From Saprospiraceae bacterium (lineage in GTDB: Bacteria > Bacteroidota > Bacteroidia > Chitinophagales > Saprospiraceae), in the NCBI GenBank assembly GCA_019187225.1, contig JABAQQ010000039.1, positions 91,580 through 155,579 of the forward strand: a stretch of 64,000 nt of DNA, written 5' to 3'. Shown piece after piece: positions 5,477 to 58,470 of this stretch. The notes under the pieces are model-generated. The model was given only the letters and a program-made list of their open reading frames with translations, was not told the origin of the DNA and ran no database searches. The translations under genes were made by a program, and so were the position numbers. The stretch's first letter is position 1. Each line of letters opens with the position of its first letter.

Positions 5477-5486
5477 AGAGTGAATG

Positions 5487-5589
5487 ATAGTCGTTTGAAA
5501 GTGGTTTGAATGGTTTGAGTTGTTAGAAATTGTTGGTAGCCGATCTTTTAAAAGTGACTGTCGTTCAAAACCACTTTGCGCTGGCTATA
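5487..5589. repeat. ~100-bp dispersed palindromic element, copy 1
   Basis: Starts ATAGTCGTTTGAAAGTGG and ends CTATA. It aligns over its whole length, with few mismatches, to 12900-12998. The two ends are inverted relative to each other (AAAGTGGTTTGAA on the left, TTCAAAACCACTTT on the right), so it can fold back. It fills the gap between the kinase start and the M48/TPR stop. Half copies occur at 34750-34779 and 42104-42131. It has no coding capacity. Confidence 0.75.
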
Positions 5590-8099: not shown

Positions 8100-8128
8100 G
8101 ACGGTGGACGGTGGATGGTAGACGGTAG
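8100..8128. repeat. Heptamer-type leader repeat before the 7380-8099 gene
   Basis: On the coding (minus) strand the bases just before the ATG are about four degenerate copies of a 7-bp unit, CCGTCTA/CCGTCCA/CCATCCA. The same unit forms the long array at 53713-53884. Confidence 0.75.
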
Positions 8129-8130
8129 AT

Positions 8131-10821: not shown

Positions 10822-10866
10822 GAAGTTGGACTGATGGACTTTAGGCAGTCCAATGTCTTACTTCTT
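10820..10866. terminator. Hairpin between convergent permease and serine hydrolase genes
   Basis: TTGGACTG (10826-10833) pairs perfectly with CAGTCCAA (10846-10853). An outer pair, AAGAAGT (10820-10826) with ACTTCTT (10860-10866), extends the stem into the stop region of the minus-strand gene. It is likely a shared terminator. Confidence 0.5.
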
Positions 10867-13764: not shown

Positions 13765-15051
13765 ATGCGCAAAATATTCATCGCCGCCGCTTTATTCGCA
13801 TGCTGCCTGACCCAACTCCGCGCTGCCTTCATCCTGCTGCCCATGGACGAAACCAACCAGCGCAACCACCTGAAAGCCTACGGCATCACTTTTTGGGTGC
13901 TGAACCAGGGCGTGGAAGCGTATTGGCTGCTCAATTACAAGGGCGGGAGTTTTGCCTTCGCCTACACAACGGCATTTGAAAAAGAATGTAAAACCCGTGA
14001 CGTAAGTTATGAGATCCTCGCCGATGGGCAGTTTGCCAATATCCAGAACGATATTCTCAACCCGGAGGTCAACCAGGATGTGATCAAACTCGAAAAAGCG
14101 CCGAAAGTTGCCGTGTATACGCCCGATAAAAACGAAAAAGGCGAGGTCGTACAGCCTTGGGACGACGCCGTGACGATGGTGCTCACCTACGCCGAAATCC
14201 CGTACGATATAGTGTACGATACCGAGGTGCTGAACGGCAAATTGGCCGAGTACGACTGGCTGCACCTGCACCACGAAGATTTTACGGGTATGTTCGGGAA
14301 ATTTTATTCGAGCAACAGCAGCCAACCCTGGTACCGCGAGCACGTGCGCCTGATGGAAAGCCTCGCCCGGGAAAACGGCTTCAGCAAGGTGAGCAAACTC
14401 AAACTCGCCGTAGCCAAAAAGATCGCCGAATACGTCAGCGGCGGCGGCTTCATGTTCGCCATGTGCTCCGCTACCGACACGTACGACATCGCACTGGCAG
14501 CCGAAGGCACCGACATCTGCGCTTCGGTGTTCGACGGCGACCCCATTGACCCCGACTGCAACAACAAACTGGATTATTCCAAAACCTTCGCTTTCACGAA
14601 TTTCAAGGTGTATACCGAGCCGGGATTGTACGAACATTCCACCATTGACAATGGCGAAGTGACGGGCCGCCGGGTGGTACCGGAACAGGACTATTTCACG
14701 CTGTTCGACTTTTCGGCCAAATGGGACCCCGTGCCTACCATGCTCACCCAATGCCACACCCGCACAGTGAAGGGATTTATGGGCCAGGCAACGGCCTTCC
14801 TAAAAACCTGCATCAAACCGCAGGTGCTCATCATGGGCGAAAACAAACCCGCCAATGAAGCCCGCTACATCCACGGCACCTACGGCTACGGCTTCTGGAC
14901 TTTCTATGGCGGCCACGACCCCGAAGACTACCGCCACTACGTCGGCGACCCGCCCACCGACCTGGCATTACACCCCAACTCACCGGGATACCGACTGATA
15001 CTCAATAACATATTGTTCCCAGCAGCGAAAAAGAAGCATCAGAAGACGTAG
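13765..15051 (+). CDS. Secreted protein of the Bacteroidota 'asparagine synthetase B' type (glutamine amidotransferase-like fold)
   Basis: The 428-residue product has a signal peptide (MRKIFIAAALFACCLTQLRA) followed by FILLPMDETNQRNHLKAYGITFWVL, the start of a Bacteroidota family usually labelled asparagine synthetase B in databases. It does not show the N-terminal Cys of class II amidotransferases or a PP-loop motif, so the label is doubtful. The middle contains YVSGGGFMFAMCSATDTYD, which resembles the nucleophile elbow of class I amidotransferase/DJ-1 folds, and the C-terminus has TYGYGFWTFYGGHDPEDY. It is exported, which does not fit amino-acid synthesis. A strong terminator follows at 15071. 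Confidence 0.7.
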   Translation: MRKIFIAAALFACCLTQLRAAFILLPMDETNQRNHLKAYGITFWVLNQGVEAYWLLNYKGGSFAFAYTTAFEKECKTRDVSYEILADGQFANIQNDILNPEVNQDVIKLEKAPKVAVYTPDKNEKGEVVQPWDDAVTMVLTYAEIPYDIVYDTEVLNGKLAEYDWLHLHHEDFTGMFGKFYSSNSSQPWYREHVRLMESLARENGFSKVSKLKLAVAKKIAEYVSGGGFMFAMCSATDTYDIALAAEGTDICASVFDGDPIDPDCNNKLDYSKTFAFTNFKVYTEPGLYEHSTIDNGEVTGRRVVPEQDYFTLFDFSAKWDPVPTMLTQCHTRTVKGFMGQATAFLKTCIKPQVLIMGENKPANEARYIHGTYGYGFWTFYGGHDPEDYRHYVGDPPTDLALHPNSPGYRLILNNILFPAAKKKHQKT

Positions 15052-15070
15052 GTTGGTTGTTGGTTGTTAG

Positions 15071-24562: not shown

Positions 24563-25741
24563 TCAAATGGTTTCCACTGCCGTCACCATCGGCACATACA
24601 ACTCCCCGTTCAGCACATTCCTCGAAATGACGATACGCTGCACTTCGGATGTACCCTCGTATATCTGCGTGATCTTGGCGTCGCGCATCAGGCGCTCGAC
24701 GTGGTATTCTTTCACGAAGCCGTAACCGCCGTGGATCTGTACGGCTTCGGTGGTCTGGCGCATAGCGACTTCGGAAGCGAATACTTTGGCCATGGCTGCC
24801 GCCTGGTCGTAGTTCATGTTCTGGTCTTTCATCATAGCGGCACGGTATACCAGCAGGCGGGCGGCTTCCACCTGAGTCGCCATATCGGCAATTTTAAAGG
24901 CGATCGCCTGGTGCTGGCTGATGGGTTTTCCGAAGGCGCTGCGTTCTTTGGAATAGGCAACGGCAAGTTCATAGGCGCCAGCCGCGATGCCCAGAGCTTG
25001 GGAAGCGATGCCGATCCGCCCGCCGGAGAGGGTTTTCATGGCGAATTTGAACCCGAAACCGTCCTCCCCGATACGGTTGGCTTTCGGCACTTTCACGTCG
25101 TTGTACATGATCGAGGTCGTGTCCGAGGAGCGGATGCCGAGTTTGTCCTCCTTCGCGCCGATGGTCACACCCGGGGAATCGGCTTCCACGATGAGACAGT
25201 TGATGCCGCGGTGCCCTTTGTCCGGGTAGGTTTGCGCCATTACGAGGTGGAGTTTGGACGTAGCGCCATTGGTGATCCAGTTTTTCGTACCGTTCAGCAG
25301 ATAGTGGTCGCCCATGTCCACAGCGGTGGTGCGCTGGCTGGTCGCGTCACTGCCCGCTTCGGGTTCGGAGAGACAGAACGAGCCGATCCATTCACCCGTG
25401 ACGAGTTTGGGCAGGTATTTTTGCTTTTGTTCTTCTGTGCCATACTTTTCGACTCCCCAACAAACCAGCGAATTGTTGACGGACATGATGACCGAGCAGG
25501 AGTTATCCACTTTACTGATCTCTTCCATCGCCAACACATAGGAAAGCGTATCCATACCTCCACCGCCGTATTCAGGCGACACCATCATGCCGAGGAAGCC
25601 GAGTTCGCCCATTTTTTTGACTTGTTCATAGGGATAAATCCCCTTGGAATCGCGCTCGATGACGCCGGGTTTCAGTTCGTTTTGGGCAAAATCACGTGCC
25701 GCTTGCTGTACGGCGAGATGTTCTTCGGTCAGGTGAAACAT
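24563..25741 (-). CDS. Acyl-CoA dehydrogenase (short-chain/butyryl type)
   Basis: FAD-dependent enzyme of 392 residues that introduces the alpha-beta double bond in beta-oxidation. It has the FAD/substrate signature CLSEPEAGSDATSQRT, WITNG, and the C-terminal MRDAKITQIYEGTSEVQR with catalytic Glu in IYEGT, as in the short/medium-chain branch. The length is standard. The start at 25741 is set by the family N-terminus MFHLTEEHLAVQQAARDF; the frame is open upstream through repeat DNA, which is not part of the protein. It is convergent with the DUF58 gene (7-base gap). No electron-transfer flavoprotein gene is adjacent. Confidence 0.95.
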   Translation of the reverse strand: MFHLTEEHLAVQQAARDFAQNELKPGVIERDSKGIYPYEQVKKMGELGFLGMMVSPEYGGGGMDTLSYVLAMEEISKVDNSCSVIMSVNNSLVCWGVEKYGTEEQKQKYLPKLVTGEWIGSFCLSEPEAGSDATSQRTTAVDMGDHYLLNGTKNWITNGATSKLHLVMAQTYPDKGHRGINCLIVEADSPGVTIGAKEDKLGIRSSDTTSIMYNDVKVPKANRIGEDGFGFKFAMKTLSGGRIGIASQALGIAAGAYELAVAYSKERSAFGKPISQHQAIAFKIADMATQVEAARLLVYRAAMMKDQNMNYDQAAAMAKVFASEVAMRQTTEAVQIHGGYGFVKEYHVERLMRDAKITQIYEGTSEVQRIVISRNVLNGELYVPMVTAVETI

Positions 25742-25785
25742 TTTTCTGACGGTTGACGGTGAATGGTTGACGGTTGACGGCTTTT
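25742..25785. repeat. Short-period leader repeat before the acyl-CoA dehydrogenase gene
   Basis: On the coding (minus) strand, four copies of CCGTCAA/CCATTCA units with 7-bp spacing end about 6 bases before the ATG. Confidence 0.75.
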
Positions 25786-25879
25786 TACTGTGGTGAAGCC
25801 GTTTTTCAGCGACAAAAGTACATGATTTCGCCATTTCCTTTGGAACACGTCCTTCTAAGTATGTGGACAAAATAAATTG

Positions 25880-25945
25880 ACGTTGGACGTTGGACGTTTG
25901 ACCGTGACAACCAATCATTTAGTCCAATGTCCAATGTCAAAAATC
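25880..25945. repeat. Short-period repeats (GACGTTG and CCAATGT units)
   Basis: Three copies of a GACGTTG-type 7-bp unit (25880-25901) are followed, after a spacer, by AGTCCAATGTCCAATGTC (25920-25937). They lie between the divergent acyl-CoA dehydrogenase and M29 peptidase genes. The CCAATGT unit recurs at 29095-29152. Confidence 0.75.
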
Positions 25946-27198: not shown

Positions 27199-27924
27199 TT
27201 AAATCTGAAACGTGTGCGAATGCCCGTTCACCACCACCGTCACCGTGCCGTCACCGTTGAAAGTCAGTGTGCCGTCGAGGGTACGGGTATTGCCCTGGCC
27301 GTTCGTGCCACTCACCTGTACCGTGCCCGTGCCGCCGGTGATCTCATAAGTATCTTTGGAAATGACGAGATCGGCGATGGCGATGGTCGTCGTACAATCG
27401 AAGGTCGGGTCTATGCGCCGCAGATCGCCGGTGAGATCGCCCGTGAGCGTATAGGCGCCATTGACCAGATAAGCCGGTTCCTGAGGGCTGAGGCCGGTGA
27501 AAGCCAGGGAGCCGCTCGCCTGGTCGTTGCCCGACCAACGGGTCGTCGAAAACGACCCATTGCCGCTCACTTCCACGCTTGCATCCAACGGAATACCGAG
27601 GTCGTTGCAGTGGATCAGCCATTCCAGCCCAAAGGTGTAATTATATGAGGCGAATGCGTTTGAGTTGCTTTTTTGCAGCGTCGTGTCGCCCGGTACGCCG
27701 CAGTTTTCCAGGTAGTTGCCGAGCATTTGCGCCATTTCCACCGTCGGCATCGCCATGCCGGCAGTTCGGTCGGACACAGCGGTTTCTACGATTTCGGCGG
27801 CTTCGCTTTCGCTGATGAGCGCGGCGATGTCTTCTGCGGATTTGCGGCAGGAACTGAGGAAAGCAAGGGCCGAAGCAAGGAGTACAAGAGTGGGAAGGAT
27901 TTGATTTTTACGATCGCTTTTCAT
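27199..27924 (-). CDS. Predicted lipoprotein, unknown function
   Basis: The 241-residue product has a signal peptide ending in the lipobox FLSSC (C26). A short helical segment follows (SAEDIAALISESEAAEIVETA), then a Gly/Thr/Ser-rich beta-structured region (about 110-241) with many ST and GN turns (SGSLAFTG, TGDLTGDLRR, TGGTGTVQVSGTNGQG). No known domain recognised. It is probably surface-exposed or periplasmic. On its coding strand the leader (27925-27965) contains repeated TTCAAC units. A terminator follows it. Confidence 0.75.
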   Translation of the reverse strand: MKSDRKNQILPTLVLLASALAFLSSCRKSAEDIAALISESEAAEIVETAVSDRTAGMAMPTVEMAQMLGNYLENCGVPGDTTLQKSNSNAFASYNYTFGLEWLIHCNDLGIPLDASVEVSGNGSFSTTRWSGNDQASGSLAFTGLSPQEPAYLVNGAYTLTGDLTGDLRRIDPTFDCTTTIAIADLVISKDTYEITGGTGTVQVSGTNGQGNTRTLDGTLTFNGDGTVTVVVNGHSHTFQI

Positions 27925-27965
27925 AGACGAATGGTTGAATTTGTTGAATGAGTTGAAATGGTTTT
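27925..27965. repeat. TTCAAC-type leader repeat
   Basis: On the minus strand CATTTCAACTCATTCAAC is followed by AAATTCAACCATTCG and ends close to the ATG at 27924: four degenerate units with 7-10 bp spacing. Confidence 0.65.
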
Positions 27966-28149: not shown

Positions 28150-28190
28150 CGGTTGTTTTACACTTTACCCTCGACCCTCTACCCTCCACC
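28150..28190. repeat. CCCTCNA-type leader repeat
   Basis: ACCCTCGACCCTCTACCCTCCACC ends directly at the ATG of the next gene: a 7-8 bp unit ACCCTCN repeated about three and a half times, preceded by TTTACACTTT. Confidence 0.75.
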
Positions 28191-29089: not shown

Positions 29090-29165
29090 CAGTCCAACGT
29101 CCAATGTCAAAAAGTCCAATGTCAAAAAGTCCAATGTCCAATGTCCAAAAATCCAATATCCTGAT
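29090..29165. repeat. CCAATGT-type repeat before the haem/copper protein gene
   Basis: AGTCCAACGTCCAATGTC, then AAAAAGTCCAATGTC twice, then CCAATGTCCAAAAATCC. The 7-bp CCAATGT unit and a 15-bp higher-order unit are both visible. In frame it would read MSKSPMSKSPMSN, but no signal peptide follows unless translation begins at 29185. Confidence 0.8.
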
Positions 29166-29184
29166 TTCTAATTTTCAAATACTT

Positions 29185-30771
29185 ATGAAATTCAAACACT
29201 TCCTGTGCCTCTGCCTGCCTGCGTTTTTTTCAGCAACTACCGGCGCCCAAGCCACCGTGAACTGGGCTACCGACATTGCGCCCATCCTGTATGAAAATTG
29301 CGTCAAATGCCATCGCGACGGCGGCATCGGCCACTTTTCGCTCATCGGCTATGGCAATGCTGCTGCCAATAGCTTTGCCGTTATGAACGCCACCCGGACC
29401 CGCAAAATGCCGCCGTGGAAGCCTGACCCCTCCTACCGCCGCTTTGCCCACGAGCGCCGCCTGACCGACGAACAAATCCAGACGATCCAGGATTGGGTAT
29501 TTGCAGGCTCTCCTGCCGGCGACCTGAACCAGGCCCCGCCCGACCCGGTGTTCGTGCCCGGCTCCAACGTCGGCACGCCCGATCACGTGCTCACCACACC
29601 CCTTTACACGGTGACGGCAACAGAGGACGAATACCGCTGCTTTGTCATCCCCAACGGCTTGAATCAGGCAGCGTACCTGCGCGGACTGGAGGCCATTCCC
29701 GGAAACCACGAAGTAGTGCACCACATTCTGATCTACGAGGACACGACCGGACAGGCGCAGGTGCTCGACAGTCAGACTCCCGAACCGGGATACGTCAACT
29801 TTGGCGGTACCGGCGTGAACGGTTCGAGGCTCATCGGGGCCTGGGTTCCCGGCTCGACGACCATACTCACCCCTCCTTTTATGGGCATGAAACTGACCCC
29901 CGGCGCCGACCTCATCGTACAAATGCACTATCCCAAAGGCGTGACCGGAATGAGCGATATGACGACACTCAATTTTTTCTTTACACCCGCCAATCAGAAC
30001 ATTCGCGAAATCCGGCTTGCTCCGCTCATCAACCACACGCCGCTTTCACTCGAAAACTGGCCGCTTTTCATACCCGCCAACCAAGTTAAAACGTATCATG
30101 CAAAGTTTCAGGTGCCGATAGACGGGGCGGTGCTAAGTGTGGCGCCGCACATGCACCTCATTGGCAGGAGCATGGTGTGCTTTGCAGTAACCCCGCAAAA
30201 TGACACCATCCCGCTCATTCGCATCAACGACTGGGATTTTCACTGGCAAGGCGGTTACTTTTTCCAAAAAATCCAAAAAGTGCCCGCCAATTCGACTGTC
30301 CATGCTTACGCTGCCTACGACAATACGACGAACAACCCTTTCCAGCCCAGCGACCCGCCGCAACTGGTAACGCAGGGCGAAGCCACTACCGACGAAATGA
30401 TGCTCGTTTATTTCGCTTTCCTCGAATACCAGCCGGGCGACGAGGATATTGTACTCGACAGCACTTTGCTGAGTACTGCCGTGCCGTTCGTGCCCGATGG
30501 CGGCGGGGAAATTGCGTTCAGCGTTTTTCCGAACCCTGTGAGCGGACGGGCTGTCGTTGAATTTGAAATCTCAGAAACTGCCGATATCCAGGCAAGTATT
30601 TTGGACCTGAACGGACGCTCACTGAAAACCTTTGCTGAAAAACGAGACCTCGCACCGGGCATCTACCGCGAAACCGCCGATCTGAGTGATTTGCCGCCCG
30701 GCGTTTATGTCGCCAGAATACATACCTCGAACGGGAAGTGCGGCGTGGTGAAAGTCGTTAAAGATCAATAA
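29185..30771 (+). CDS. Secreted c-type haem / copper monooxygenase-like protein with T9SS sorting domain
   Basis: The 528-residue product has a signal peptide (MKFKHFLCLCLPAFFSATTGAQ); a cytochrome-c-like domain (25-110) with haem motif CVKCH (C39, C42, H43) and a candidate axial Met in RTRKMPPWKP (M75); a two-part domain like peptidylglycine alpha-hydroxylating/dopamine beta-monooxygenases (about 140-430) with copper ligands H179/H180 (VVHHILIYED), H248 (VQMHYPKG) and H322/H324 (PHMHLIGR); and a type A T9SS C-terminal domain (VFPNPVSGRAVVEFEIS ... PPGVYVARIHTSNGKCG). Probably secreted across the outer membrane and surface-attached. Activity on peptides or small molecules is inference. The 27 codons of repeat DNA before 29185 are not considered coding. 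Confidence 0.85.
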   Translation: MKFKHFLCLCLPAFFSATTGAQATVNWATDIAPILYENCVKCHRDGGIGHFSLIGYGNAAANSFAVMNATRTRKMPPWKPDPSYRRFAHERRLTDEQIQTIQDWVFAGSPAGDLNQAPPDPVFVPGSNVGTPDHVLTTPLYTVTATEDEYRCFVIPNGLNQAAYLRGLEAIPGNHEVVHHILIYEDTTGQAQVLDSQTPEPGYVNFGGTGVNGSRLIGAWVPGSTTILTPPFMGMKLTPGADLIVQMHYPKGVTGMSDMTTLNFFFTPANQNIREIRLAPLINHTPLSLENWPLFIPANQVKTYHAKFQVPIDGAVLSVAPHMHLIGRSMVCFAVTPQNDTIPLIRINDWDFHWQGGYFFQKIQKVPANSTVHAYAAYDNTTNNPFQPSDPPQLVTQGEATTDEMMLVYFAFLEYQPGDEDIVLDSTLLSTAVPFVPDGGGEIAFSVFPNPVSGRAVVEFEISETADIQASILDLNGRSLKTFAEKRDLAPGIYRETADLSDLPPGVYVARIHTSNGKCGVVKVVKDQ

Positions 30772-34638: not shown

Positions 34639-34690
34639 TTGATGGTGATTTGTTGATTTGGGGATTTGTTGATTCGGGCATTCGGTTATT
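34639..34690. repeat. Leader repeat before recG
   Basis: On the coding (minus) strand, AATCAACAAATC occurs twice (AATCAACAAATCCCC then AATCAACAAATCACC), ending a few bases before the ATG, preceded by ATGCCCGAATC. Confidence 0.7.
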
Positions 34691-36570: not shown

Positions 36571-39500
36571 ATGATCCTCATCCGCTACTCTTTTTGCACC
36601 CTGCTGTTGTGCCTGCTCATCGCCGTCCAAACCGTTCGGGCACAATGTACCACCGAAGCAGGTACGCTGAACACCACCCCGCAAATACTGTGTGAAGGGG
36701 CATCACTTTCAGTCGCTCACAACAACGATCAGACGCTGGACGGCGACGATATCCTGATCTTCGTCGCCTACACCGGCTCCGCACCGAATGCAACGACCGT
36801 GTTCGCCACTTCGACGGACGGGAATTTCCCATATCAGGGCAGTTTTCTCGCCAATTCGCCTTTCAAAGTGGCAGCAGTGGCGGGCAACGATGCGGGCGGT
36901 GCGATGGATTGGGACGATCCCTGCCTCTCGGTATCCAATGCCGTCAATGTGACATATATGCCTCCACCGCAGATCACTGTTTCGGGCGGTTTACTGACAT
37001 GCTTCAACTCCTTTGTTGTGGTGAACACAACCGTTAATCAACCCGACTGTTTTTTTCAATGGAGCAACGGCAATACGACACCCGTGATAACCATCCAGCA
37101 ACCGGGCACCTATTGCATTACAGTGACAAACCAGGCGGGTTGTACGGCGACGGAATGCGTAACGATTTTGGCAGATGCCACTATTCCTGTGGCAGATGCC
37201 GGCCCGGATGTAACGACCGGATGTGTTGCGGGCAGTATAACACTGGATGGCAGCGGCTCTTCGCAGGGGCCTGAATTTGTTTACGAATGGATTGGCCCCA
37301 ACGGGTTTAATGCCAATCAGTTAAGCCTGGTTTTCAATTTCGGTTCCCCGCCTGCCGGAACATTTATCCTGACGGTTACAAATATTGTTAACGGTTGCAC
37401 CGCCACCGATGCTACCCAGGTGCTGTTAACGGACCCTCCATCGGCAAACGCCGGCCCCGATTCGGGCATACCCTGCGGTGGCGGCACGACGACGCTTACC
37501 GCGAGCGGGGGGCCCGGATCGGTTACCTATGCCTGGACCGGGCCGGGGAATTTTAATTCAATCCTGCAAAATCCGATTGTAAGCACTCCTGGTACCTATA
37601 CAATAATCGTAACGGACGTCAACACGGGATGCACCGCCACCGACCAGGTGACCGTATTCCCGGGACCGGCCATACCGCAGCAGGATTTTGAAGTGACCGA
37701 TGCAACGTGCCAGGGGCTCAACGATGGAAGCATCAACCTCAGCATGTCGCTCGGGCAGTCTCCTTACGAATTTGAGTGGACAGGCCCTGCCTCGTTTACC
37801 GCGAACACGGAAGATATCGACAACCTCGCTCCGGCTCAGTACAGCATCGTTGTCACAGACGATACGGGATGTAGCTATTACGCGAATGTGACAGTGGAAG
37901 CAGTAACGACCCTGATCATATCCGCCAATGTTGGCCCCCTCAATTGTATTGGAAACAACGGCTCCATTGCCTTGGCTGTGACAGGCGGTACGCCTCCCTA
38001 CCTGTATCAATGGAATACCGGGGCAACCGGCCAGGGAATACAGGGACTTGGGCCGGGAACATATACGGCTACCGTGACCGATGTGAACGGCTGCACAGCC
38101 GTCACGCCGCCCATTACAATTGTTCAACCGTCGCAATTGGTGGTCACAGTCGGGCCTGTTAATTGCGGGGACAACACTGCTCAGATATTCGTATCAGGAG
38201 GCACAGCACCCTATACCTACCAATGGAGCAACGGCGCGAATGGCCCGATCGTGTCGAATCTCCCTCCCGGCACTTATACCGTGACCGTGACAGACGCGAA
38301 CGGCTGTATGGGATTTGCCACCATTACCATCGGCCCGGTTGGCAATCCTTATTGCGGATTCATTACGGGGCAGGTATGGAGGGATTCAATAGACAATTGC
38401 CTCTCGGACCCCGGCGAACAGGGCATACAGAACTGGATCGTGCGCGCCGATGCCAGCAGCGGAGCTACTTATTACGGCGTGACGGATGCCTCAGGTGTTT
38501 ACAATATAGGTGTGGAAGAAGGCGATTACACTTTGACTCTGATCCCACCGAACGCCTTGTGGGAGCCATGCGTCCTTACCCAACCGCTCGGCGCCGTCAC
38601 TGCGAACGATACGGTGGAAGCTGACGATTTCTTTGTTCAGGCAGTTGCCTTCTGCCCCGCTCTGTCGGTTTCTATCGGCACCAGCCTGTTGAGGCGTTGT
38701 TTTTCAAACAACTTATACTTTGTCGATTATTGTAACGACGGAACGGCGCCGGCTGAAGACGCATACGTCATCGTTACGCTCGATCCCCTCTTGTCACCTG
38801 TTTCGTCGTCTTTGCCTTATACCAATCTGGGGAACAACGAGTTGCAGTTCAATGTGGGCGACCTGAATGTCGGCGAATGCGGTTTGTTCAGTATCCAGGT
38901 TCAAGTCAGTTGCGACGCCGCGCTCGGCCAGACACACTGCACCGAAGCGCATATTTATCCTGATTCCTCCTGCCTGCCAAACGACCCGCTGTGGTCGGGT
39001 GCAAGCCTGCAGGTGAACAGCCGGTGCGATGCCGATTCCGTGCGGTTTATCATCAAAAACATCGGGGCAGCCGATATGGTCAACTCCGTGGAATACGTTA
39101 TCATCGAGGATGCGGTGATGCTCATGGCAGCGCCCCTGCAGCCCCTCGGCGCAGGCGACTCCGTCATCCTTTCTTTCCCGGCCAACGGCAGTACCTGGCA
39201 CCTCGAAGTAGATCAGGTCGAATACCACCCCGGTAATTCGCAGCCTTCGCTTTCCGTAGAGGGGTGCAGTTCAACCCCCTCGTTCTCAACGGGTTTTGTG
39301 GCACAGTTCTCCGTCAACGACGCCGATCCGTGGATTGACATAGATTGCACCGCCAACATTGGCTCTTTCGACCCGAACGACAAGCAGGGTTTCCCGGTAG
39401 GCTACGGTTCGGAACATTACATCCGTCCCGGCACCGAACTCGAATACCTGATCCGCTTTCAAAATACCGGTACCGATACGGCCTTCACTGTGCGCGTATT

Positions 39501-40068
39501 GGATACGCTTTCCGCCTGGCTCGATCCGGCTACCATCCGCCCCGGCGCGAGCAGCCACCAGTACCAGTTCAACCTGACCGGACCAGGTATCGTCGAATTC
39601 TTGTTTGAAGACATCCTGTTGCCCGACAGCAACGTGAACGAACCCGCTTCCAACGGTTTCGTCAAGTTCAGCATTCTGCCACGCACCGGCGCACCGCTGG
39701 AGACGGTTATCGAAAACGATGCGGCCATCTATTTCGACTTCAACGAACCGGTCATTACCAACACCACCTTCCACCGCCTGGGTGAGAATTTTGTGGTGCG
39801 CGCATGGCAGCCGTTCGTGCCCGGTGCCGATGTGACGGTAGCGCCCAATCCTTTCAGCGATGAAGCCCTTTTAACCGTAAAAGGATTGCGCAACAACGCG
39901 CCACTCCGGTTGAGGGTATTCGATCTGCAAGGACAGGTCGTAAATGAAACGGAAACCACAGGTACCGTCTTCCATTTGAGAAAAGGAGACTGGCCCGCAG
40001 GGGTTTATCTGTTCCAAATATCACAAAACGGCGCCGTGATCGGAAGTGGAAAGTTGGCGGTGAAGTAG
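36571..40068 (+). CDS. Giant secreted SprB-repeat protein with T9SS sorting domain
   Basis: The 1165-residue product has a signal peptide (about 1-24); PKD/Ig-like domains (25-370); SprB-type repeats (about 375-590) with the signature GTPPYLYQWNTGATGQGIQGLGPGTYTATVTD and its copies; a segment resembling an SD-repeat/prealbumin fold (590-660, ITGQVWRDSIDNCLSDPGEQG); a DUF11/DUF7619-like region (about 930-1080) starting GSFDPNDKQGFPVGYG; and a T9SS C-terminal domain (VAPNPFSDEALLTVKG ... PAGVYLFQISQNG). SprB-type repeats occur in gliding adhesins. Probably secreted and surface-anchored; an adhesin role is inference. A hairpin terminator follows at 40110. Confidence 0.9.
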   Translation: MILIRYSFCTLLLCLLIAVQTVRAQCTTEAGTLNTTPQILCEGASLSVAHNNDQTLDGDDILIFVAYTGSAPNATTVFATSTDGNFPYQGSFLANSPFKVAAVAGNDAGGAMDWDDPCLSVSNAVNVTYMPPPQITVSGGLLTCFNSFVVVNTTVNQPDCFFQWSNGNTTPVITIQQPGTYCITVTNQAGCTATECVTILADATIPVADAGPDVTTGCVAGSITLDGSGSSQGPEFVYEWIGPNGFNANQLSLVFNFGSPPAGTFILTVTNIVNGCTATDATQVLLTDPPSANAGPDSGIPCGGGTTTLTASGGPGSVTYAWTGPGNFNSILQNPIVSTPGTYTIIVTDVNTGCTATDQVTVFPGPAIPQQDFEVTDATCQGLNDGSINLSMSLGQSPYEFEWTGPASFTANTEDIDNLAPAQYSIVVTDDTGCSYYANVTVEAVTTLIISANVGPLNCIGNNGSIALAVTGGTPPYLYQWNTGATGQGIQGLGPGTYTATVTDVNGCTAVTPPITIVQPSQLVVTVGPVNCGDNTAQIFVSGGTAPYTYQWSNGANGPIVSNLPPGTYTVTVTDANGCMGFATITIGPVGNPYCGFITGQVWRDSIDNCLSDPGEQGIQNWIVRADASSGATYYGVTDASGVYNIGVEEGDYTLTLIPPNALWEPCVLTQPLGAVTANDTVEADDFFVQAVAFCPALSVSIGTSLLRRCFSNNLYFVDYCNDGTAPAEDAYVIVTLDPLLSPVSSSLPYTNLGNNELQFNVGDLNVGECGLFSIQVQVSCDAALGQTHCTEAHIYPDSSCLPNDPLWSGASLQVNSRCDADSVRFIIKNIGAADMVNSVEYVIIEDAVMLMAAPLQPLGAGDSVILSFPANGSTWHLEVDQVEYHPGNSQPSLSVEGCSSTPSFSTGFVAQFSVNDADPWIDIDCTANIGSFDPNDKQGFPVGYGSEHYIRPGTELEYLIRFQNTGTDTAFTVRVLDTLSAWLDPATIRPGASSHQYQFNLTGPGIVEFLFEDILLPDSNVNEPASNGFVKFSILPRTGAPLETVIENDAAIYFDFNEPVITNTTFHRLGENFVVRAWQPFVPGADVTVAPNPFSDEALLTVKGLRNNAPLRLRVFDLQGQVVNETETTGTVFHLRKGDWPAGVYLFQISQNGAVIGSGKLAVK

Positions 40069-40817: not shown

Positions 40818-41116
40818 AAACAACTTCGGAAGGGAGTTCCATTTCTGCTTTGATTGTACAAAAACCTTTTGACATTTCGCTTTCTGCCGACAAAACCCCA
40901 CCCTTCGCGGTGCATTTTCCGCCAAACCCTTTCGTTAATTTTTTGATTCACTACTTTTGCCGCTCTTTTGGCAAAACAAACCCGCATACGCGGCGTTTAA
41001 GCCCCCTTGTGCGGTTGTTGGTTGTTGGTTATTGACTGGTTTAACCAACAACCAACAACAAACAACCAATAACCAACAACCAATAAACCAATCACCAATT
41101 CAACTAACACAACAGA
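40818..41116. other. Intergenic region with inverted GTTG/CAAC repeats
   Basis: No convincing gene. From about 41011 the sequence is GGTTGTTGGTTGTTGGTTATTG, then after a short spacer many CCAACAA, CCAATAA and CCAATCA units up to the moxR ATG. GGTTGTTGGTTATTG (left) is an exact inverted copy of CAATAACCAACAACC (right), so the leader can fold. Open frames crossing 40818-41035 look like noise. Confidence 0.65.
41014..41105. repeat. CCAACAA/CCAATAA leader repeat before moxR
   Basis: About ten degenerate 7-8 bp units, first as GTTGTTG on the plus strand and then as CAACAAC, ending about 10 bases before the start codon. Confidence 0.8.
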
Positions 41117-42082
41117 ATGGCACAATTCAAATCGGATGTAGAAGCAGTAGATACGCTGGCGCAGGCGTACAAAGACCTTTCGTCAGAAGTCGGCAAAGTC
41201 ATTGTCGGTCAGGACGACGTGGTGCGGGCCGTCATCATCACCCTTTTTTCCAACGGCCATGCCTTGCTCGTTGGGGTGCCGGGATTGGCGAAGACCCTCC
41301 TGGTCAGCACGATAGCGGAGGTATTGGAACTCGATTTCAAGCGCATCCAGTTCACCCCCGACCTGATGCCCTCGGACATTACCGGTTCTGAAATTCTCGA
41401 CGAAGACCGCCATTTTCGGTTTATGCGGGGGCCCGTATTCGCGAACATCGTTTTAGCGGACGAGATCAACCGGACGCCGCCCAAAACGCAGGCTGCCCTG
41501 CTCGAAGCGATGCAGGAAAGGTCGGTCACAGTGAGCGGCTCCCGGCACGCCCTGCCGTCGCCATTTTTTGTGTTGGCGACCCAAAACCCCATCGAACAGG
41601 AAGGCACCTACCCGTTGCCGGAAGCCCAATTGGACCGTTTTATGTTCAACATTCCGCTGACTTACCCCACCTATGAACAGGAAGTGGAAGTGGTAAAAAA
41701 CACGACCTCGTCTTTCAAGCCGGCGCTTCGCCACATCCTGAGCAGCGATCAAATCCTTGAATATCAACAGTTGATCCGAAAAATACCTGTAAGCGACAAC
41801 GTTTTGGAATACGCCGTCGGCCTGGCTGCGAAAACCCGCCCCGGCACCGAACGCGCCACAAAGGAGGCCAACAATTACCTCGGTTGGGGGGCAGGGCCAC
41901 GCGCCAGCCAATTCCTGGTGTTGGGCGCTAAATGCCACGCAGCGATCCGCGGCAAATATTCTCCCGACATCGAAGACGTGCAGGCCATTGCCAACCTCGT
42001 GTTGCGCCACCGCATTGTACGCAACTACAAAGCGGAAGCCGAGGGTGTGACGGAGGATAATATCATCGAGGCGCTGCTTTGA
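41117..42082 (+). CDS. MoxR-family AAA ATPase
   Basis: The 321-residue product is of the MoxR/RavA-like group, chaperone-type ATPases that act with DUF58/von Willebrand A proteins on envelope or enzyme-maturation targets. Walker A is GVPGLAKT (53-60); Walker B is VLADEINRTPPKTQAALLEAMQE, the family signature; the sensor region is FFVLATQNPIEQEGTYPLPEAQLDRF. Full length. No DUF58 or vWA gene is next to it, although a DUF58 gene lies at 23242. Confidence 0.95.
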   Translation: MAQFKSDVEAVDTLAQAYKDLSSEVGKVIVGQDDVVRAVIITLFSNGHALLVGVPGLAKTLLVSTIAEVLELDFKRIQFTPDLMPSDITGSEILDEDRHFRFMRGPVFANIVLADEINRTPPKTQAALLEAMQERSVTVSGSRHALPSPFFVLATQNPIEQEGTYPLPEAQLDRFMFNIPLTYPTYEQEVEVVKNTTSSFKPALRHILSSDQILEYQQLIRKIPVSDNVLEYAVGLAAKTRPGTERATKEANNYLGWGAGPRASQFLVLGAKCHAAIRGKYSPDIEDVQAIANLVLRHRIVRNYKAEAEGVTEDNIIEALL

Positions 42083-43622: not shown

Positions 43623-43663
43623 TCTATATTTGTTGTTAGTTGTTAGTTGTTGGTTGTTGGGGT
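43623..43663. repeat. CAACAAC leader repeat before proS
   Basis: On the coding (minus) strand CCAACAACCAACAACTAAC is followed by AACTAACAACAAATATAG and then the ATG: five to six 7-bp CAACAAC/CTAACAA units. Confidence 0.8.
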
Positions 43664-53292: not shown

Positions 53293-53712
53293 TTATTCTG
53301 TAACCGATTGAGCAGGAATGGTCTGACAAAGTTCCACCAGGACTCCATTGGCCGATTTCGGATGTAAAAACGCCACCCACTTGTTGTCGGCGCCGCGTTT
53401 GGGTTCGCGGTTGAGCGCAATAAAACCTTCGTTTTCGAGGCGGTTGATCTCAGCGCGGATATCAGCCACTTCAAAGGCAATGTGGTGAATGCCTTCGCCG
53501 CGTTTTTCGATGAATTTTGCAATTGGGCTTTCCGGATCGGAAGCTTCCAGCAATTCGATCTTACTCTCACCGATATGAAAAAAAGAAGTCGCTACTTTTT
53601 CACTTTCCACGGTCTCCACCTTGTAATGGGCTTCGGCGAGAAGTTTGCGAAATAATTCATTGCTCTCCGCCATGTTCCGGACGGCAATTCCGATGTGGTC
53701 AATTTTTAGCAT
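53293..53712 (-). CDS. mce: Methylmalonyl-CoA epimerase
   Basis: The 139-residue VOC-fold enzyme that interconverts the (R) and (S) forms of methylmalonyl-CoA in propionate metabolism. Metal ligands: H6 (IDHIGIAV), H77 (GIHHIAFEV) and E127 (GVLVELCQ); family signature ESPIAKFIEKRGEGIHH. The start at 53712 is set by MLKIDHIGIAV; the frame is open upstream only through the heptamer array. The mutase genes are not in the window. Confidence 0.93.
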   Translation of the reverse strand: MLKIDHIGIAVRNMAESNELFRKLLAEAHYKVETVESEKVATSFFHIGESKIELLEASDPESPIAKFIEKRGEGIHHIAFEVADIRAEINRLENEGFIALNREPKRGADNKWVAFLHPKSANGVLVELCQTIPAQSVTE

Positions 53713-53884
53713 GGTGGACGCGGTGGACGGTGGACGCGGTGGACGGTGGACGCGGTGGACGGTGGACGGTAGACGGTGGACGGTGGACGGTAGACGGTAG
53801 ACGGTAGACGGTAGACGGTGGACGGTGGACAATAAAGTCAATTAACCTTTTTACCGTCCACCGTCCACCGTCTACCGTCTACCC
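53713..53884. repeat. Large GGTGGAC/GGTAGAC heptamer array with 27-bp perfect inverted repeat
   Basis: A 7-bp unit (GGTGGAC, GGTAGAC, or with CGC inserted, CGCGGTGGAC) fills 53712-53830. After a 25-base non-repeat loop, the last 27 bases of the array (53804-53830) recur exactly as their reverse complement at 53856-53882, directly against the upstream gene's stop. A very stable hairpin is predicted. This occupies the whole gap between mce and the HU/SPOR gene. Confidence 0.9.
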
Positions 53885-55021
53885 TTATTTCTTTTTAATC
53901 CAGATTTCCTTTTCGCCCGTCAGGTTTTGCAGCGTTTTTATTTTTTCCTGCACTTCGCTGATCTTTGTGTAGTAAAAGCGGATGCCTACCTGGTAGCCGT
54001 TTTTTTGCAAAAAATATACGTCGAAACCTTCTTCGCTGAGCATCTGTTCAAGGCGGTCGGCGTTGGCTTTTTCGCGAAGCGTAGCGACAACAAGAATACA
54101 CTCGCGGGCGCCCTTGGGTGTTGTTTTCACATTCGATACTTCTTCTCTGGCAGCCTGCGTTCTTTCCGCAACAGCTTCCTCCACTTTTTTATCTAATTTG
54201 GCTTCTTCACTTTCGGCGGCTTTTGTTTCGGGTTCGGTCAGCACCGGTTTTTCGGCTTTTTTAGGCGATTCATTTGTTTTGCCAGAGCCCGGCAGGGGAT
54301 TGGCCGTGCGCTCCGTTTTTTCGGTCTCAGCCTCGGCGAGTTTGTTTTTCTGGTGTTTCCAGAGCCAGTAACCTCCCGATAAAGCACAGAACAACAAAAA
54401 GATACCCAAGGCCGTAGCCCAACCTGCTCCTCCTGAGCGCGAAGCCTGCGGCGTGTAAGGCTCAGGAGTGGGTGGCGGCGATGCAGGTGTTTTGACAGTT
54501 GACGCGGGCGGCGGCGGCGGTGCGGTTGTTGTCCGGATGGTGGAGCCTGCAGCCGGTACGGGTGGAGGCGTTTCCTGATTTTTTTCTACCTCACGGGACC
54601 GCCCGATGGGTGAAAACTGGAGCGGCGGCAGGCCGAACGACTCAGGACTAAAGTTGGTGGTGTCCGGTAAAAACTGTATTTTCTGAACGTAATTTTTATA
54701 CAACCTTCCCACGGACGGCAGAGTGACGATCTCGCGCTGGCTGAGTTGAGCTTGCATTTTTTCAACAAAATCTGCAATGATTTGACGAGACTCTTCGGTG
54801 GAAATACCATGGGTAATGGAGACGTCGTTGACCAAAACCCCGTCGTCAGTTGTGACGTTCTCACTGAAAGTCAATGACTTGGAAGGAGGAGACACGGTTC
54901 CGCCGGCATAGTCGGCAGTAGCGGATACTTTGGTTGCAGTAAAGGTGCCGAAACCGGGGATCGTCAGCGTATCGTGAAGAAAAAGCAATTTTTCGATGTG
55001 GGCAGGTATATCAATTTGCAT
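53885..55021 (-). CDS. Cell-envelope protein with HU-like and SPOR domains
   Basis: The 378-residue product has two N-terminal HU/CCDC81-like modules (about 1-140; LTIPGFGTFTATKVSA ... IVTLPSVGRLYKNY), which may bind DNA or form a filament-like scaffold; a Pro/Thr-rich linker (about 150-200); one membrane helix (ATALGIFLLFCALSGGYWLW, about 205-225); an acidic, Lys/Glu-rich periplasmic stretch; and a C-terminal SPOR domain (300-378: RECILVVATLREKANADRLEQMLSEEGFDVYFLQKNGYQVGIRFYY) that binds denuded peptidoglycan at septa. The family is specific to Bacteroidota and related phyla. It may link nucleoid and divisome; that is inference. Confidence 0.88.
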   Translation of the reverse strand: MQIDIPAHIEKLLFLHDTLTIPGFGTFTATKVSATADYAGGTVSPPSKSLTFSENVTTDDGVLVNDVSITHGISTEESRQIIADFVEKMQAQLSQREIVTLPSVGRLYKNYVQKIQFLPDTTNFSPESFGLPPLQFSPIGRSREVEKNQETPPPVPAAGSTIRTTTAPPPPPASTVKTPASPPPTPEPYTPQASRSGGAGWATALGIFLLFCALSGGYWLWKHQKNKLAEAETEKTERTANPLPGSGKTNESPKKAEKPVLTEPETKAAESEEAKLDKKVEEAVAERTQAAREEVSNVKTTPKGARECILVVATLREKANADRLEQMLSEEGFDVYFLQKNGYQVGIRFYYTKISEVQEKIKTLQNLTGEKEIWIKKK

Positions 55022-55970: not shown

Positions 55971-57026
55971 GTGAAGCATCTTTTCTTTCTGCTCTTTTTT
56001 GCCTTTTTCTCCGCTCCTTTCGCTTGTAACGCCCAAACTCCCACGCGTTTGATCATTCTTGGCCCCGGCCACGTTGCCTTGCTGCTCGACAGTGCGGACG
56101 CCGCCAAAGCCATTACAACCGACCGCTACGACAAATTCTTTGAACGGGTGACCGCCTCCGAAATGTCTATTCAAATGAAGCAACCGCTCGCCGCAGGTCA
56201 AACCAGTGAAGCCCTGTTGCCTGCATATACGGATTTTTTGAAAGCCGATGTGGAAAGTTTTAGTGCCGGCGATATCGAGTTTATAGAAAAAGTGCTGAAA
56301 AAAATGTTCAAAACTGTCGGTGAAGTCAATGCGAAAATTTTTCCCGACACCATTAAATTGATCGTCACTAAAAGCAAACACTACGGCGCAGGGGTGTGGT
56401 ATACCCGCGACAATTGTATTGTCATCCCCAAAGGCGAATTGGAAGCTAAAAAGACCAATGCCTTTACCAACACAATGTACCATGAGCTCTTTCACATCTA
56501 TTCCCGGCTCAATCCGGCCAAACGCGCCAAACTGTATCACTTGATCGGTTTTGAACACATTGGTTTTGATAAACTGATGCTTCCACCGGCGCTTGCCGAA
56601 CGCATACTGTTCAATCCCGACGGCGTGGATTTTGCGCAAAAGATCGAACTGGCATTGGCCGATAATACAATGATACAGGCAATACCAGTTATTTATGCCA
56701 ATCATGTGGGCGCCAAGGCTGGGCGAAACGAATTCTTCGGTTACCTGGAATTCAACCTGTTTCAAATCCAGCCCAACGGCGAAGGTGCCTGGAAAGTCAT
56801 CACAAAAGAGGACGGCTTCAGCAGTACACTTAAGATCAATGAATTGCCTGATTTCTATCGTCAAATCAAGGACAACACGGGTTACATCATCCACCCCGAC
56901 GAAGTACTGGCCGACAATTTTTCCTTTATTATGGTGGAGAAGAACAGTCCGCAATACACCTCGAAATTTTCGGCAGAAGGGAAAAAACTGCTAAAAGACG
57001 TGGAAGCCATTCTAAAGGAGCGGTAG
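55971..57026 (+). CDS. Secreted HExxH-motif protein, putative zinc peptidase
   Basis: The 351-residue product has a signal peptide (MKHLFFLLFFAFFSAPFACNAQ) and a zinc-peptidase-like motif HELFH at 171-175 preceded by TFTNTMY and followed by a Tyr/Arg-rich helix. No third ligand or family can be fixed. The start codon is GTG at 55971, the only start that gives the signal peptide. Its stop region overlaps, by 15 bases and head to head, the 3' end of the next gene on the other strand. Confidence 0.75.
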   Translation: MKHLFFLLFFAFFSAPFACNAQTPTRLIILGPGHVALLLDSADAAKAITTDRYDKFFERVTASEMSIQMKQPLAAGQTSEALLPAYTDFLKADVESFSAGDIEFIEKVLKKMFKTVGEVNAKIFPDTIKLIVTKSKHYGAGVWYTRDNCIVIPKGELEAKKTNAFTNTMYHELFHIYSRLNPAKRAKLYHLIGFEHIGFDKLMLPPALAERILFNPDGVDFAQKIELALADNTMIQAIPVIYANHVGAKAGRNEFFGYLEFNLFQIQPNGEGAWKVITKEDGFSSTLKINELPDFYRQIKDNTGYIIHPDEVLADNFSFIMVEKNSPQYTSKFSAEGKKLLKDVEAILKER

Positions 57027-58421
57027 ACCGAACAATCCCTTTTGCTTTACCAGCCGCGCCACATTTTCCGGCACCATTTGCTCCCATCCGGATGTTCCTT
57101 TTTGGATCATCTGCAACACTTCTTTGTGGTAAACGCCCAATATGGAAGGGTCAAATCCCTGGATATCAACAACATTCCGGTTTTCCAACAAGTGATCGTA
57201 CAGGAAGTGAATAACCCGGGGAATAGGAAGATTTTGAGCCGTGACGAGGGAAGTGGCGCCGCCACTTCCGAGCGCCGGATACACATAAAAACGGACATTT
57301 CTTGGAAACAACTCTCCGAATGCTCCGAGCAGGTTGTCGGGGTTGGCGTCGCAGGTTTCCTGTAAAATATTCTGGAGTTTGCGGACACCCATAGCAAGAC
57401 CGATATGCTGTATCTTATAGTCGGCGAAATAAGCGATAAGGCGTTGGTGTTGCAGGCAGTTGGAAATGATGACCGTTTGGCCAAGAGCACATAGAATATC
57501 GGCGCGGTCGAGGAAATCGCGCTCGTCGAGGTCGCCGCCAGAACGGAGATTGTCGAGCGTGATCTCGGTGAGGAAGAAGGTCTTGCCCGGGTCCACATCG
57601 GGTTCCGCGCGGAATTGTTCGTAAGCGCAGCGGACCATGTCCTGCTGCACCAGAGTCGGCGGGCGGTAACTGCCCCGGGCGATGAGGATGGATTTTTTAT
57701 AGAGGAATTCGCCGGCGTGCAGGCTGTTGCCGTCGGGGCCGAAGATGGCAACCTCGCTCAGGCCGTTCTTGACGACCCACAGACACACCAGACGATTGTC
57801 CACATTTTGAAAATCGGGACCCTGCAGCCGCACCATATCAATTTTGACCCGCCCCCGCAGATTGTCCATCAACGATTGGAGCAACGTTTCCGGGTCGTGG
57901 TAATAACGAAAGCAGCCATAGATCAGGTTGACGCCGAGGATGCCGACAGCCTGTTGCTGAAGGCGGTTGTCCTGGTCGAGCAACCGGACATGAAGGACGA
58001 GATCGTTGGGTTTGGAGGAAGGGTGCAATTGGAACCGCAGGCCGAGCCATCCGTCACCCTTGATGGTTTTCTGATAATTGATGGCTGCTACTGTATCTGC
58101 AAAAGCGAAAAAATTTTGCTGCGGCCGTTCTTCGCGCAGGCGGCCTTCCATAAGTTGGTATTCATGGTCAAGCATGCGGTAGAGGCGCGGTTCGCAAACG
58201 TAACGGCCTTTGCCTTTGGCCTCCGTACCGTAGATCTCGTCGCTTACCGTCTTGTCATAGGCGCTCATCGTTTTGGCTATCGTGCCTGCCGCCGCACCCA
58301 CCTGGAAAAAATGCCGTGCTACTTCCTGCCCCGCGCCGATCTCGGCAAAGGCGCCATAGATCCGTTCATCGAGATTGATCTCCAATGCTTTTTGTTCCGT
58401 TTCGAGAATGCGGCGCGTCAT
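57012..58421 (-). CDS. Conserved cytosolic protein of unknown function
   Basis: I recognise the sequence style (MTRRILETEQKALEINLDERIYGAFAEIGAGQEVARHFFQVGAAAGTIAKTMSAYDKTVSDEIYG) as a conserved bacterial family, also in cyanobacteria, whose database labels (such as nicotinate-nucleotide adenylyltransferase) are not supported by any motif seen here. The 469 residues contain no signal or membrane helix; notable conserved-looking segments are EIGAGQEV, GAAAGTIAK, YVCEPRLYRMLDHEY, and YPALGSGGATSLVT. The leader on its strand holds repeated TCAATGAC units. Convergent overlap of 15 bases with the preceding gene. Confidence 0.7.
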   Translation of the reverse strand: MTRRILETEQKALEINLDERIYGAFAEIGAGQEVARHFFQVGAAAGTIAKTMSAYDKTVSDEIYGTEAKGKGRYVCEPRLYRMLDHEYQLMEGRLREERPQQNFFAFADTVAAINYQKTIKGDGWLGLRFQLHPSSKPNDLVLHVRLLDQDNRLQQQAVGILGVNLIYGCFRYYHDPETLLQSLMDNLRGRVKIDMVRLQGPDFQNVDNRLVCLWVVKNGLSEVAIFGPDGNSLHAGEFLYKKSILIARGSYRPPTLVQQDMVRCAYEQFRAEPDVDPGKTFFLTEITLDNLRSGGDLDERDFLDRADILCALGQTVIISNCLQHQRLIAYFADYKIQHIGLAMGVRKLQNILQETCDANPDNLLGAFGELFPRNVRFYVYPALGSGGATSLVTAQNLPIPRVIHFLYDHLLENRNVVDIQGFDPSILGVYHKEVLQMIQKGTSGWEQMVPENVARLVKQKGLFGLPLL

Positions 58422-58470
58422 GGTGTTAAGTCATTGAGCATCATTAGAGGTCATTGAACGTCATTAAATA
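58422..58470. repeat. TCAATGAC-type leader repeat
   Basis: On the coding (minus) strand TTAATGACGTTCAATGACC, TAATGATGCTCAATGACTTA: four units of a 7-10 bp TCAATGA/TAATGA motif end five bases before the ATG. Similar words recur at 58541-58572. Confidence 0.7.

Follow-up and report, generated by a model that had tools for sequence, protein, structure and literature searches.

Polarity and inverted pairing of tandem-repeat arrays at gene borders in a Saprospiraceae genome

Many gaps between genes in the Saprospiraceae genome described here contain short tandem arrays that are placed and oriented by a common rule. At the left edge of a gap the arrays are G-rich on the forward strand and at the right edge they are C-rich, independent of the directions of the adjoining genes. 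In addition to this border polarity, complementary arrays occur in inverted pairs, and orthologous gaps in related genomes carry different units or none. These features may reflect a set of fast-evolving array hairpins at gene borders, with paired arrays serving as 3'-end hairpins that stop or bound transcription. We favor this interpretation tentatively and give it something short of an even chance of being correct.

Arrays and their polarity at gene borders

The source genome is a 7.18-Mb draft in 73 contigs. Arrays were scanned by a simple period-match score in the window (the whole stretch of DNA under analysis, 64 kb) and 40 other stretches, which amount to 864 kb or 12% of the genome. 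Tandem rows in the window were obtained with TRF at a minimum score of 30 (Table 1). Genes were called with two codon-usage scripts of our own and no standard gene finder, so that start positions can be wrong.

An initial annotation of the window had listed repeats of similar period before twelve genes. TRF finds a tandem repeat before 11 of the 12, the gene at 23242 being the one where none was found, with a period of 7 in most cases and of 8-11 or more in a few. The array of nine TTGCGGA copies at 11920-11985 lies inside the called 5' end of a minus-strand ORF (10858-12081), whose real start may be downstream of the array. The window also encodes, at 36571-40068, a large protein with a T9SS type A sorting domain.

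Table 1. Tandem arrays located by TRF in the window
Array	Position	Strand	Setting
Period-11 array	5485-5518	-	Before 4112-5476
C/A-rich GTCYACC array	about 8100-8130	-	Between two minus-strand genes; in a 31-bp gap, upstream, only with the later of two start calls, otherwise inside an ORF
G-rich GTTGGTT array	15052-15068	+	Immediately 3' of the stop of 13765-15051
TGACGGT array on + (C-rich sense)	25747-25780	-	Precedes the ATG of 24563-25741, an acyl-CoA-dehydrogenase-like gene
GACGTTG and GTCCAAT arrays	25879-25938		Divergent gap shared with the array at 25747-25780
Period-9 array	27929-27957	-	Before 27199-27924
C/A-rich ACCCTCN array	about 28157-28190	+	Touches the ATG of 28191
GTCCAAT array	29092-29161	+	Overlaps the called 5' end of 29134-30771, for which the real start may be further downstream
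TGATTTGT/TGGGGATTTGTTGATT array on + (C/A-rich sense)	34643-34682	-	Before recG (32533)
G-rich arm GGTTGTT	41013-41034	+	Faces 41042-41099; G-first pair with 10-nt loop
C/A-rich arm TAACCAA/AACCAAC	41042-41099	+	Upstream of 41117-42082 (moxR in the initial annotation)
C/A-rich single array, sense CCAACAACTAACAAC	about 43630-43660	-	Before proS
C/A-rich arm, sense CCGTCYACC..., period 7	53713-53830	-	Runs up to the ATG of the gene for methylmalonyl-CoA epimerase
G-rich arm, sense GGTRGAC x4	53853-53883	-	1 nt past the stop of 53885-55021
Period-10 array GTCATTAAAC on +	58430-58468	-	Before 57012-58421

The window and 20 of the stretches (464 kb) contain 66 intergenic arrays, 47 of period 7. Order-3 Markov sequence of five times this length yields 11 arrays, with zero of period 7, and the intergenic arrays are therefore not products of chance. 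Called ORFs in the same 464 kb hold 40 arrays, 16 of them of period 7. Over the full 864 kb there are 134 intergenic arrays, of which 86 have period 7, 19 period 8 and 14 period 10, and 70 arrays inside called ORFs (23 of period 7). Several of the period-7 arrays within ORFs are C-rich on the sense strand, and some of these may represent fused or miscalled genes. A dominant unit length of 7 (86 of 134 intergenic arrays), multiple copies and a mainly intergenic location fit the description of bacterial heptad SSR arrays.

A pattern search for the main unit, GGTRGAC, gives 1009 matches in the source genome, compared to 0 for the reversed control. The unit is present in 14 of 42 genomes of the genus and in 2 of 394 other genomes of the phylum sample. 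A search with this one motif outside the source genome returned at least 113 stretches, several of them from the same genomes, with titles that include Gemmatimonadetes, Chloroflexi, Planctomycetes, Thermoanaerobaculia and others. The unit is thus amplified in unrelated phyla (loci L125-L237), many of the stretches coming from Gemmatimonadetes MAGs. Its occurrence there implies either that it is favored by some process or that it travels between lineages.

The border rule is obeyed by 106 of 122 arrays of period 6-10 in the 864 kb: 64 of 76 in co-directional gaps, 29 of 32 in convergent gaps and 13 of 14 in divergent gaps. This count sets aside seven arrays with little G-C difference and, by subtraction, three without a gene on one side. 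Relative to the genes, the sense strand is G-poor at starts and G-rich at stops, which makes gaps read G-rich and then C-rich on both strands. Within 20 nt of a start, 32 arrays are C-rich on the sense strand, one is G-rich and two are ambiguous. This agrees with the G-poor sense strand that the initial annotation had described before starts; equal use of both orientations relative to the downstream gene, which it had named as contrary evidence, did not occur, and orientation at starts is strongly biased. Within 20 nt of a stop the sense strand is G-rich in 39 arrays, C-rich in 12 and unclear in two; the 12 include some from gaps short enough for a start to adjoin. Most of these stop-side rows (33 of 53) begin at most 3 nt past the stop codon or overlap it.

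The two kinds of border can be separated by considering arrays at least 60 nt from a border of the other kind. In four genomes, such arrays number 62 G-rich to 4 C-rich at stop edges and 1 to 29 at start edges. The stop-edge bias is present in unpaired arrays (17 G to 3 C) as well as in paired ones (45 to 1). One of the relatives, G007, obeys the rule in 12 of 15 cases with longer periods. Two others are poor in arrays: G026 has three intergenic arrays in 100 kb and G031 has zero in 100 kb.

Outside the Saprospiraceae, 84 of 96 arrays located within 100 nt of a gene (69 of the at least 113 stretches) obey the rule, with 20 edge, 42 in-ORF, 8 far and 6 ambiguous arrays excluded. Agreement is 60:9 in co-directional, 11:2 in divergent and 13:1 in convergent gaps. 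By groups assigned by hand from record titles, with locus L201 left out, the ratios are 43:4 for Gemmatimonadota, 13:2 for Chloroflexota, 10:1 for Planctomycetota, 10:2 for other Bacteroidota and 4:0 for Lentisphaerota and the like, so that over half of the agreeing arrays come from Gemmatimonadota. Acidobacteriota (1:1) and a mixed set of Pseudomonadota, Actinomycetota, Spirochaetota and Myxococcota (3:2) offer too few arrays to judge. Among the 43 stretches assigned to the Saprospiraceae group, the ratio is 66:12.

Inverted pairs and orthologous gaps

Complementary partners were sought within 600 nt in the wider scans, or inside the gap only. In the source genome, 31 of 92 array gaps contain a complementary partner in the same gap, compared to about 1.6 expected from other gaps, and the G-rich arm is on the left in all 31. 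Complementary arms occur in 68 of 148 array-bearing gaps of four genomes, the other 80 having no partner at the pair threshold; a search for weak partners gives a best score of at least 9 in 84 of the 148, with about 8 expected. The 71 pairs found in gaps of these genomes comprise 66 G-first, 4 C-first and 1 tie. All four C-first pairs are in G021, where three overlap in one region. Every pair in a convergent gap is G-first (21 of 21, none from G007). A further 7 G-first pairs and 1 tie in the four genomes lie within ORFs or at the ends of stretches, and the at least 113 foreign or related stretches give 64 G-first, 3 C-first and 1 tie, although these pairs are not independent and derive partly from G021 and G022.

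Pairs are distributed unevenly among gap types. In four genomes they occupy 20 of the 98 convergent gaps, compared to 44 of 484 co-directional ones and 4 of 147 divergent ones (convergent versus divergent, p = 8.5e-6). Single arrays show no such difference (7 of 98 convergent, 12 of 147 divergent). G007 carries arrays and has a pair in 0 of its 14 convergent gaps. According to a simple terminator finder, an ordinary terminator is present in 2 of 20 paired convergent gaps, in 3 of 7 with a single array and in 32 of 71 that are array-free, and the rarity in paired compared to array-free gaps is significant (p = 0.004). Paired and array-free co-directional gaps contain ordinary terminators equally often (8 of 44 and 62 of 379). 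Because pairs are enriched in convergent gaps and rarely accompany ordinary terminators there, they probably act as 3'-end hairpins, at least between convergent genes.

The gap upstream of mce illustrates both pairing and turnover. Positions 53713-53884 form the entire 172-bp gap between two minus-strand genes, which encode methylmalonyl-CoA epimerase (mce, 53293-53712) and an HU-CCDC81-domain protein (53885-55021). It holds two facing arrays instead of one (53713-53830 and 53853-53883) that are partly complementary. With 30-nt flanks, the gap has a predicted RNA fold of -85.1 kcal/mol (z = -5.9 versus 100 mononucleotide shuffles). Thirty orthologous loci were recovered from 41 matching genomes, and 21 of them are array-free at the threshold used. 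Four loci have a G-first pair, each built from a different unit, and five have a single C-rich array at most 7 nt from the ATG. In some relatives (for example, L100 and L122) the upstream stop is, as judged by eye, separated from the mce ATG by only a few bases. Upstream of proS the unit of the source genome was not seen by eye in 20 relatives, only two of which keep the same upstream gene; one locus (L033) has a different array-like hairpin there, again by eye.

A convergent gap that follows a Crp-like gene provides an instance in which a terminator-like hairpin is apparently lost. Thirty loci were obtained from 42 matching genomes, with neighbors identified by their domains and with hairpins and T-runs judged by eye. 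The source genome has a GGTRGAC pair and a convergent RNase-Z-like neighbor. Five relatives with the matched RNase-Z-like neighbor have instead the motif GCAAGTTTGA, followed by a hairpin and a T-run. The terminator-like hairpin of relatives with the same neighbors is therefore missing in the source genome. Five other loci, L263-L267, carry array pairs of the units AGTGTTTT, GATGAAC, GTGAGTA, AGTGTTT and GAGTTAT, of which AGTGTTTT and AGTGTTT are alike. These pairs fill the space up to a convergent ORF that ends 82-131 nt past the Crp-like stop. The convergent ORFs are at least 1365 nt long and end at the arm, the right arm reaching the ORF stop. Since L263-L267 share one neighbor and may belong to one clade, the gains of these arrays need not be independent.

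The motif GCAAGTTTGA occurs at 0 of the 6 array loci and at 14 of the 24 others. For a segment of the stop and up to 150 nt downstream, predicted minimum free energies range from -51 to -114 kcal/mol at the six array loci and from -18 to -56 kcal/mol at the other 24. The array loci thus have the stable 3'-end hairpin of an intrinsic terminator, as far as predicted energies indicate. A U-tract directly after the stem is the other trait of intrinsic terminators, and inspection by eye revealed no consistent T-run after the arms at the array loci of this gap.

Mostly in the form GCTGCAAGTTTGA, the motif precedes a hairpin and T-run in 14 of the 30 genus loci (L259-L262, L268-L273, L277, L278, L283 and L284). 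It may constitute an independent 3'-UTR element.

Explanations of polarity and pairing

The following sequence of events would account for these observations. Tandem arrays, mostly with 7-bp units, would arise in or enter gene gaps and settle at gene borders with the G-rich strand running 5' to 3' from the gene into the gap. Arrays might grow by replication slippage, and pairs could form by strand-switching between arms. In RNA, paired arrays would become long 3'-end hairpins, bidirectional between convergent genes, which may stop or bound transcription and can perhaps take over from an intrinsic terminator. The C/A-rich arm next to an ATG would be tolerated because it makes a G-poor, unstructured leader of the kind that these bacteria use anyway. 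If pairs do terminate transcription, slippage repeats are the material from which these genomes rebuild their terminators, sister species have different ones, and finders that seek a GC stem and U-tract would miss them.

A broader formulation is that one rule, independent of sequence and direction, operates across phyla: the G-strand points outward from genes, and facing arrays yield G-first hairpins able to replace terminators. We consider this generalization unlikely as a whole. If it is true, bacteria renew transcription boundaries by polar repeat generation, such that the sequence changes by species and the architecture stays.

Several sources of the G-richness at stops can be examined separately. 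Ambient composition accounts for the starts, but on the stop side, with arrays masked, the sense skew is -0.13 to +0.19 in the first 20 nt. The highest values, +0.13 and +0.19, are reached over the initial 10 nt of convergent gaps in the two array-bearing genomes tested, and composition may make a small contribution to the polarity at stops. The G-strand carries more stop codons than the C-strand. At stop edges of the source genome there is no excess of stop codons over shuffles (0.045 versus 0.057), and the excess in G021, G005 and G007 is found at start edges too. This cause is consequently not specific to stops and is set aside, though it is not disproved.

Ordinary hairpins in convergent gaps have no G-first order (5 G, 7 C and 5 ties in the source genome; 2, 6 and 1 in G007), so the polarity is no general demand of terminators. 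In co-directional gaps ordinary hairpins are mildly G-first (39, 27 and 7 in the source genome). Recent fold-back copying would produce arms with mirrored variants, and the variant order is unmirrored between arms in 14 GGTNGAC pairings, some of which are from the same stretch. L267 is a near-perfect palindrome by eye. The G-richness at stops is thus not clearly derived from composition, stop-codon content, terminator habit or, for GGTNGAC pairs, recent inverted copying.

Arrays might also be a by-product without function, generated by polar growth of slippage-prone repeats and kept where they are harmless. G-rich nascent strands would expand and their complements contract, and the G-strand would come to point outward from sequence that cannot be invaded. 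This reading, which we regard as doubtful yet a serious contender, fits a rule that is indifferent to gene orientation and pairing and that recurs in several unrelated phyla. It also fits the different units found among species at one gap and the loops, which share no sequence beyond the units except for one 14-nt match. However, paired arrays and not single ones are enriched in convergent gaps, depleted in divergent gaps and scarce beside ordinary terminators in the former. Simple tolerance would predict the same enrichment for single arrays, and this counts against a by-product and is in keeping with the 3'-end hairpins proposed above.

The initial annotation had suggested unstructured leaders that promote translation without a Shine-Dalgarno sequence. 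The arrays do coincide with lower predicted structure. Mean minimum free energy of the -60 to +30 region is -7.2 kcal/mol for 35 genes with an adjacent array and -13.3 kcal/mol for 507 others, a difference widened by the inclusion among the 507 of some genes for which part of the 60 nt upstream is coding sequence. The start-side sense strand is G-poor, and a precedent exists in the same phylum, where translation in Flavobacterium johnsoniae is described as lacking Shine-Dalgarno sequences and depending on leader structure (PMC6847099). A role specific to arrays in promoting translation does not follow. Array-masked leaders in four genomes have an equally G-poor G-C skew of -0.11 to -0.47 in the first 20 nt, which makes such a role unnecessary to explain the avoidance of G at starts, and at mce 21 of the 30 orthologues are array-free.

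The arrays also do not belong to starts, as the leader model had assumed. For gaps of at least 30 bp, 47 of the 424 stop borders in the source genome have an array within 20 nt, compared to 33 of the 478 start borders (p = 0.03); the corresponding counts for four genomes are 82 of 699 at stops and 51 of 795 at starts (p = 0.0004). Stops, including those between convergent genes, carry arrays no less often than starts do, and this is one of the outcomes that the annotation itself had set against its proposal. A model confined to leaders is rejected on these grounds, and we judge a leader role in translation improbable.

Two further schemes appear very improbable. In the first, repeats are added at broken ends, either by a reverse transcriptase acting on a template like telomerase or DRT10 or by a repair-linked activity, and head-to-head pairs resemble fused telomeres. 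Addition to both 3' ends would yield the G-first facing order; a bacterial reverse transcriptase that makes tandem-repeat DNA has been reported (DRT10, PMC12632851), and the source genome has three RVT_1 matches. Such matches occur in 26 of 42 genus genomes. Against this, RVT_1 gives no match in G005, an array-rich genome that is 98% complete, although PF00078 may miss divergent reverse transcriptases; Ku is absent in eight of eight genomes, and many unrelated units exist side by side in one genome. The absence of Ku and of an RVT_1 match in G005 means that a telomerase-like source is not needed.

The second scheme, which has just as slim a chance, involves miniature mobile elements of the REP or MITE type moved by a Y1 transposase. 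Seven of eight genomes have Y1_Tnp matches, the exception being G031 with its 0 intergenic arrays in 100 kb. The tags GTAG and CGTC described for published REP families (PMC3733652) occur in GGTAGACG and its complement, but many units have neither tag, and G026 has Y1_Tnp matches with only 3 intergenic arrays in 100 kb. Copies of a mobile element should have conserved sequence in common. The 31 loops compared are not homologous and have no likeness beyond array units except for the one 14-nt match, so a mobile element with a shared loop is rejected.

Relation to published repeats

The initial annotation knew of no description of such repeats as a system. In fact, both polarity and inverted pairs are already published for one motif, and the case here is a variant of that kind. 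Rehm et al. (2015) described heptads, GGGAATC or GGGGA(C/T)T, that are mainly intergenic in Xanthomonas and Nostoc (PMC4692102). These are G-rich on the non-coding strand near starts and on the coding strand near stops, a rule that the present arrays also follow, and they are under-represented between divergent ORFs (PMC4692102). Close pairs in convergent orientation number 70 and 75 in two Xanthomonas genomes, with only a few in Nostoc; that report identified no role in gene regulation and discussed the repeats through G-quadruplexes (PMC4692102). In the Saprospiraceae genome, GG recurs every 7 nt in some units only.

The arrays studied here resemble the Xanthomonas and Nostoc heptads in their intergenic location, start and stop polarity and convergent pairs (PMC4692102). 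Unlike that single type of motif, they comprise many units per genome, several of them without GG tracts, under one rule. Orthologous gaps with other units or none, and one with a lost terminator-like hairpin, are further differences. The polarity, reported for a single motif type in 2015 and extended here to numerous motifs from several phyla, places a sharp constraint on any model of how bacterial repeats grow.

A second published system consists of TAACTGA direct repeats, described by MacGregor (2015) in Beggiatoaceae, Cyanobacteria and some Bacteroidetes (PMC4679880). The largest class ends 1 nt before starts, so that arrays immediately before starts were also on record, and they are interpreted as sites where binding might control translation (PMC4679880). 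In F. litoralis they precede starts, and one set right past a stop is reversed, as the border rule predicts. A Microcystis sample is mixed, with 6 forward and 8 reverse to a start and 8 between stops, and does not fit the rule. The examples given in that paper include hardly any inverted pairing, one case being in BOGUAY (PMC4679880), in contrast to its frequency here. Both systems use heptads, and G005 carries TCAGTTA, the reverse complement of the Beggiatoaceae TAACTGA, as the left arms of pairs at L248, L252 and L253. The main unit GGTRGAC differs from both published motifs compared, GGGNATC and TAACTGA.

REP palindromes are described as hairpin-forming elements downstream of genes, between co-directional and convergent ORFs (PMC3733652). 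The present arrays are alike in their location downstream of genes, their hairpins and their occurrence in co-directional and convergent gaps. They differ from REP palindromes as described (PMC3733652) in having no conserved palindrome: the arms are tandem units and the loops are unrelated. Among the top matches in the open-access literature, no description of array pairs as terminators was found. What is new here is the presence of many units in one genome, the larger number of phyla, the turnover of units and the apparent replacement of a terminator.

Cyanobacteria have STRR heptanucleotide repeats, short tandem heptads dispersed between genes. The Saprospiraceae arrays are similar in being short, tandem, intergenic heptads.

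The variable base of several units (GGTRGAC, GTGAGTRG and GTTTTRG) is a transition in the context TRG, as seen by eye. On the C-rich strand this context reads CCA or CTA, both in arrays of the source genome and at L263-L266.
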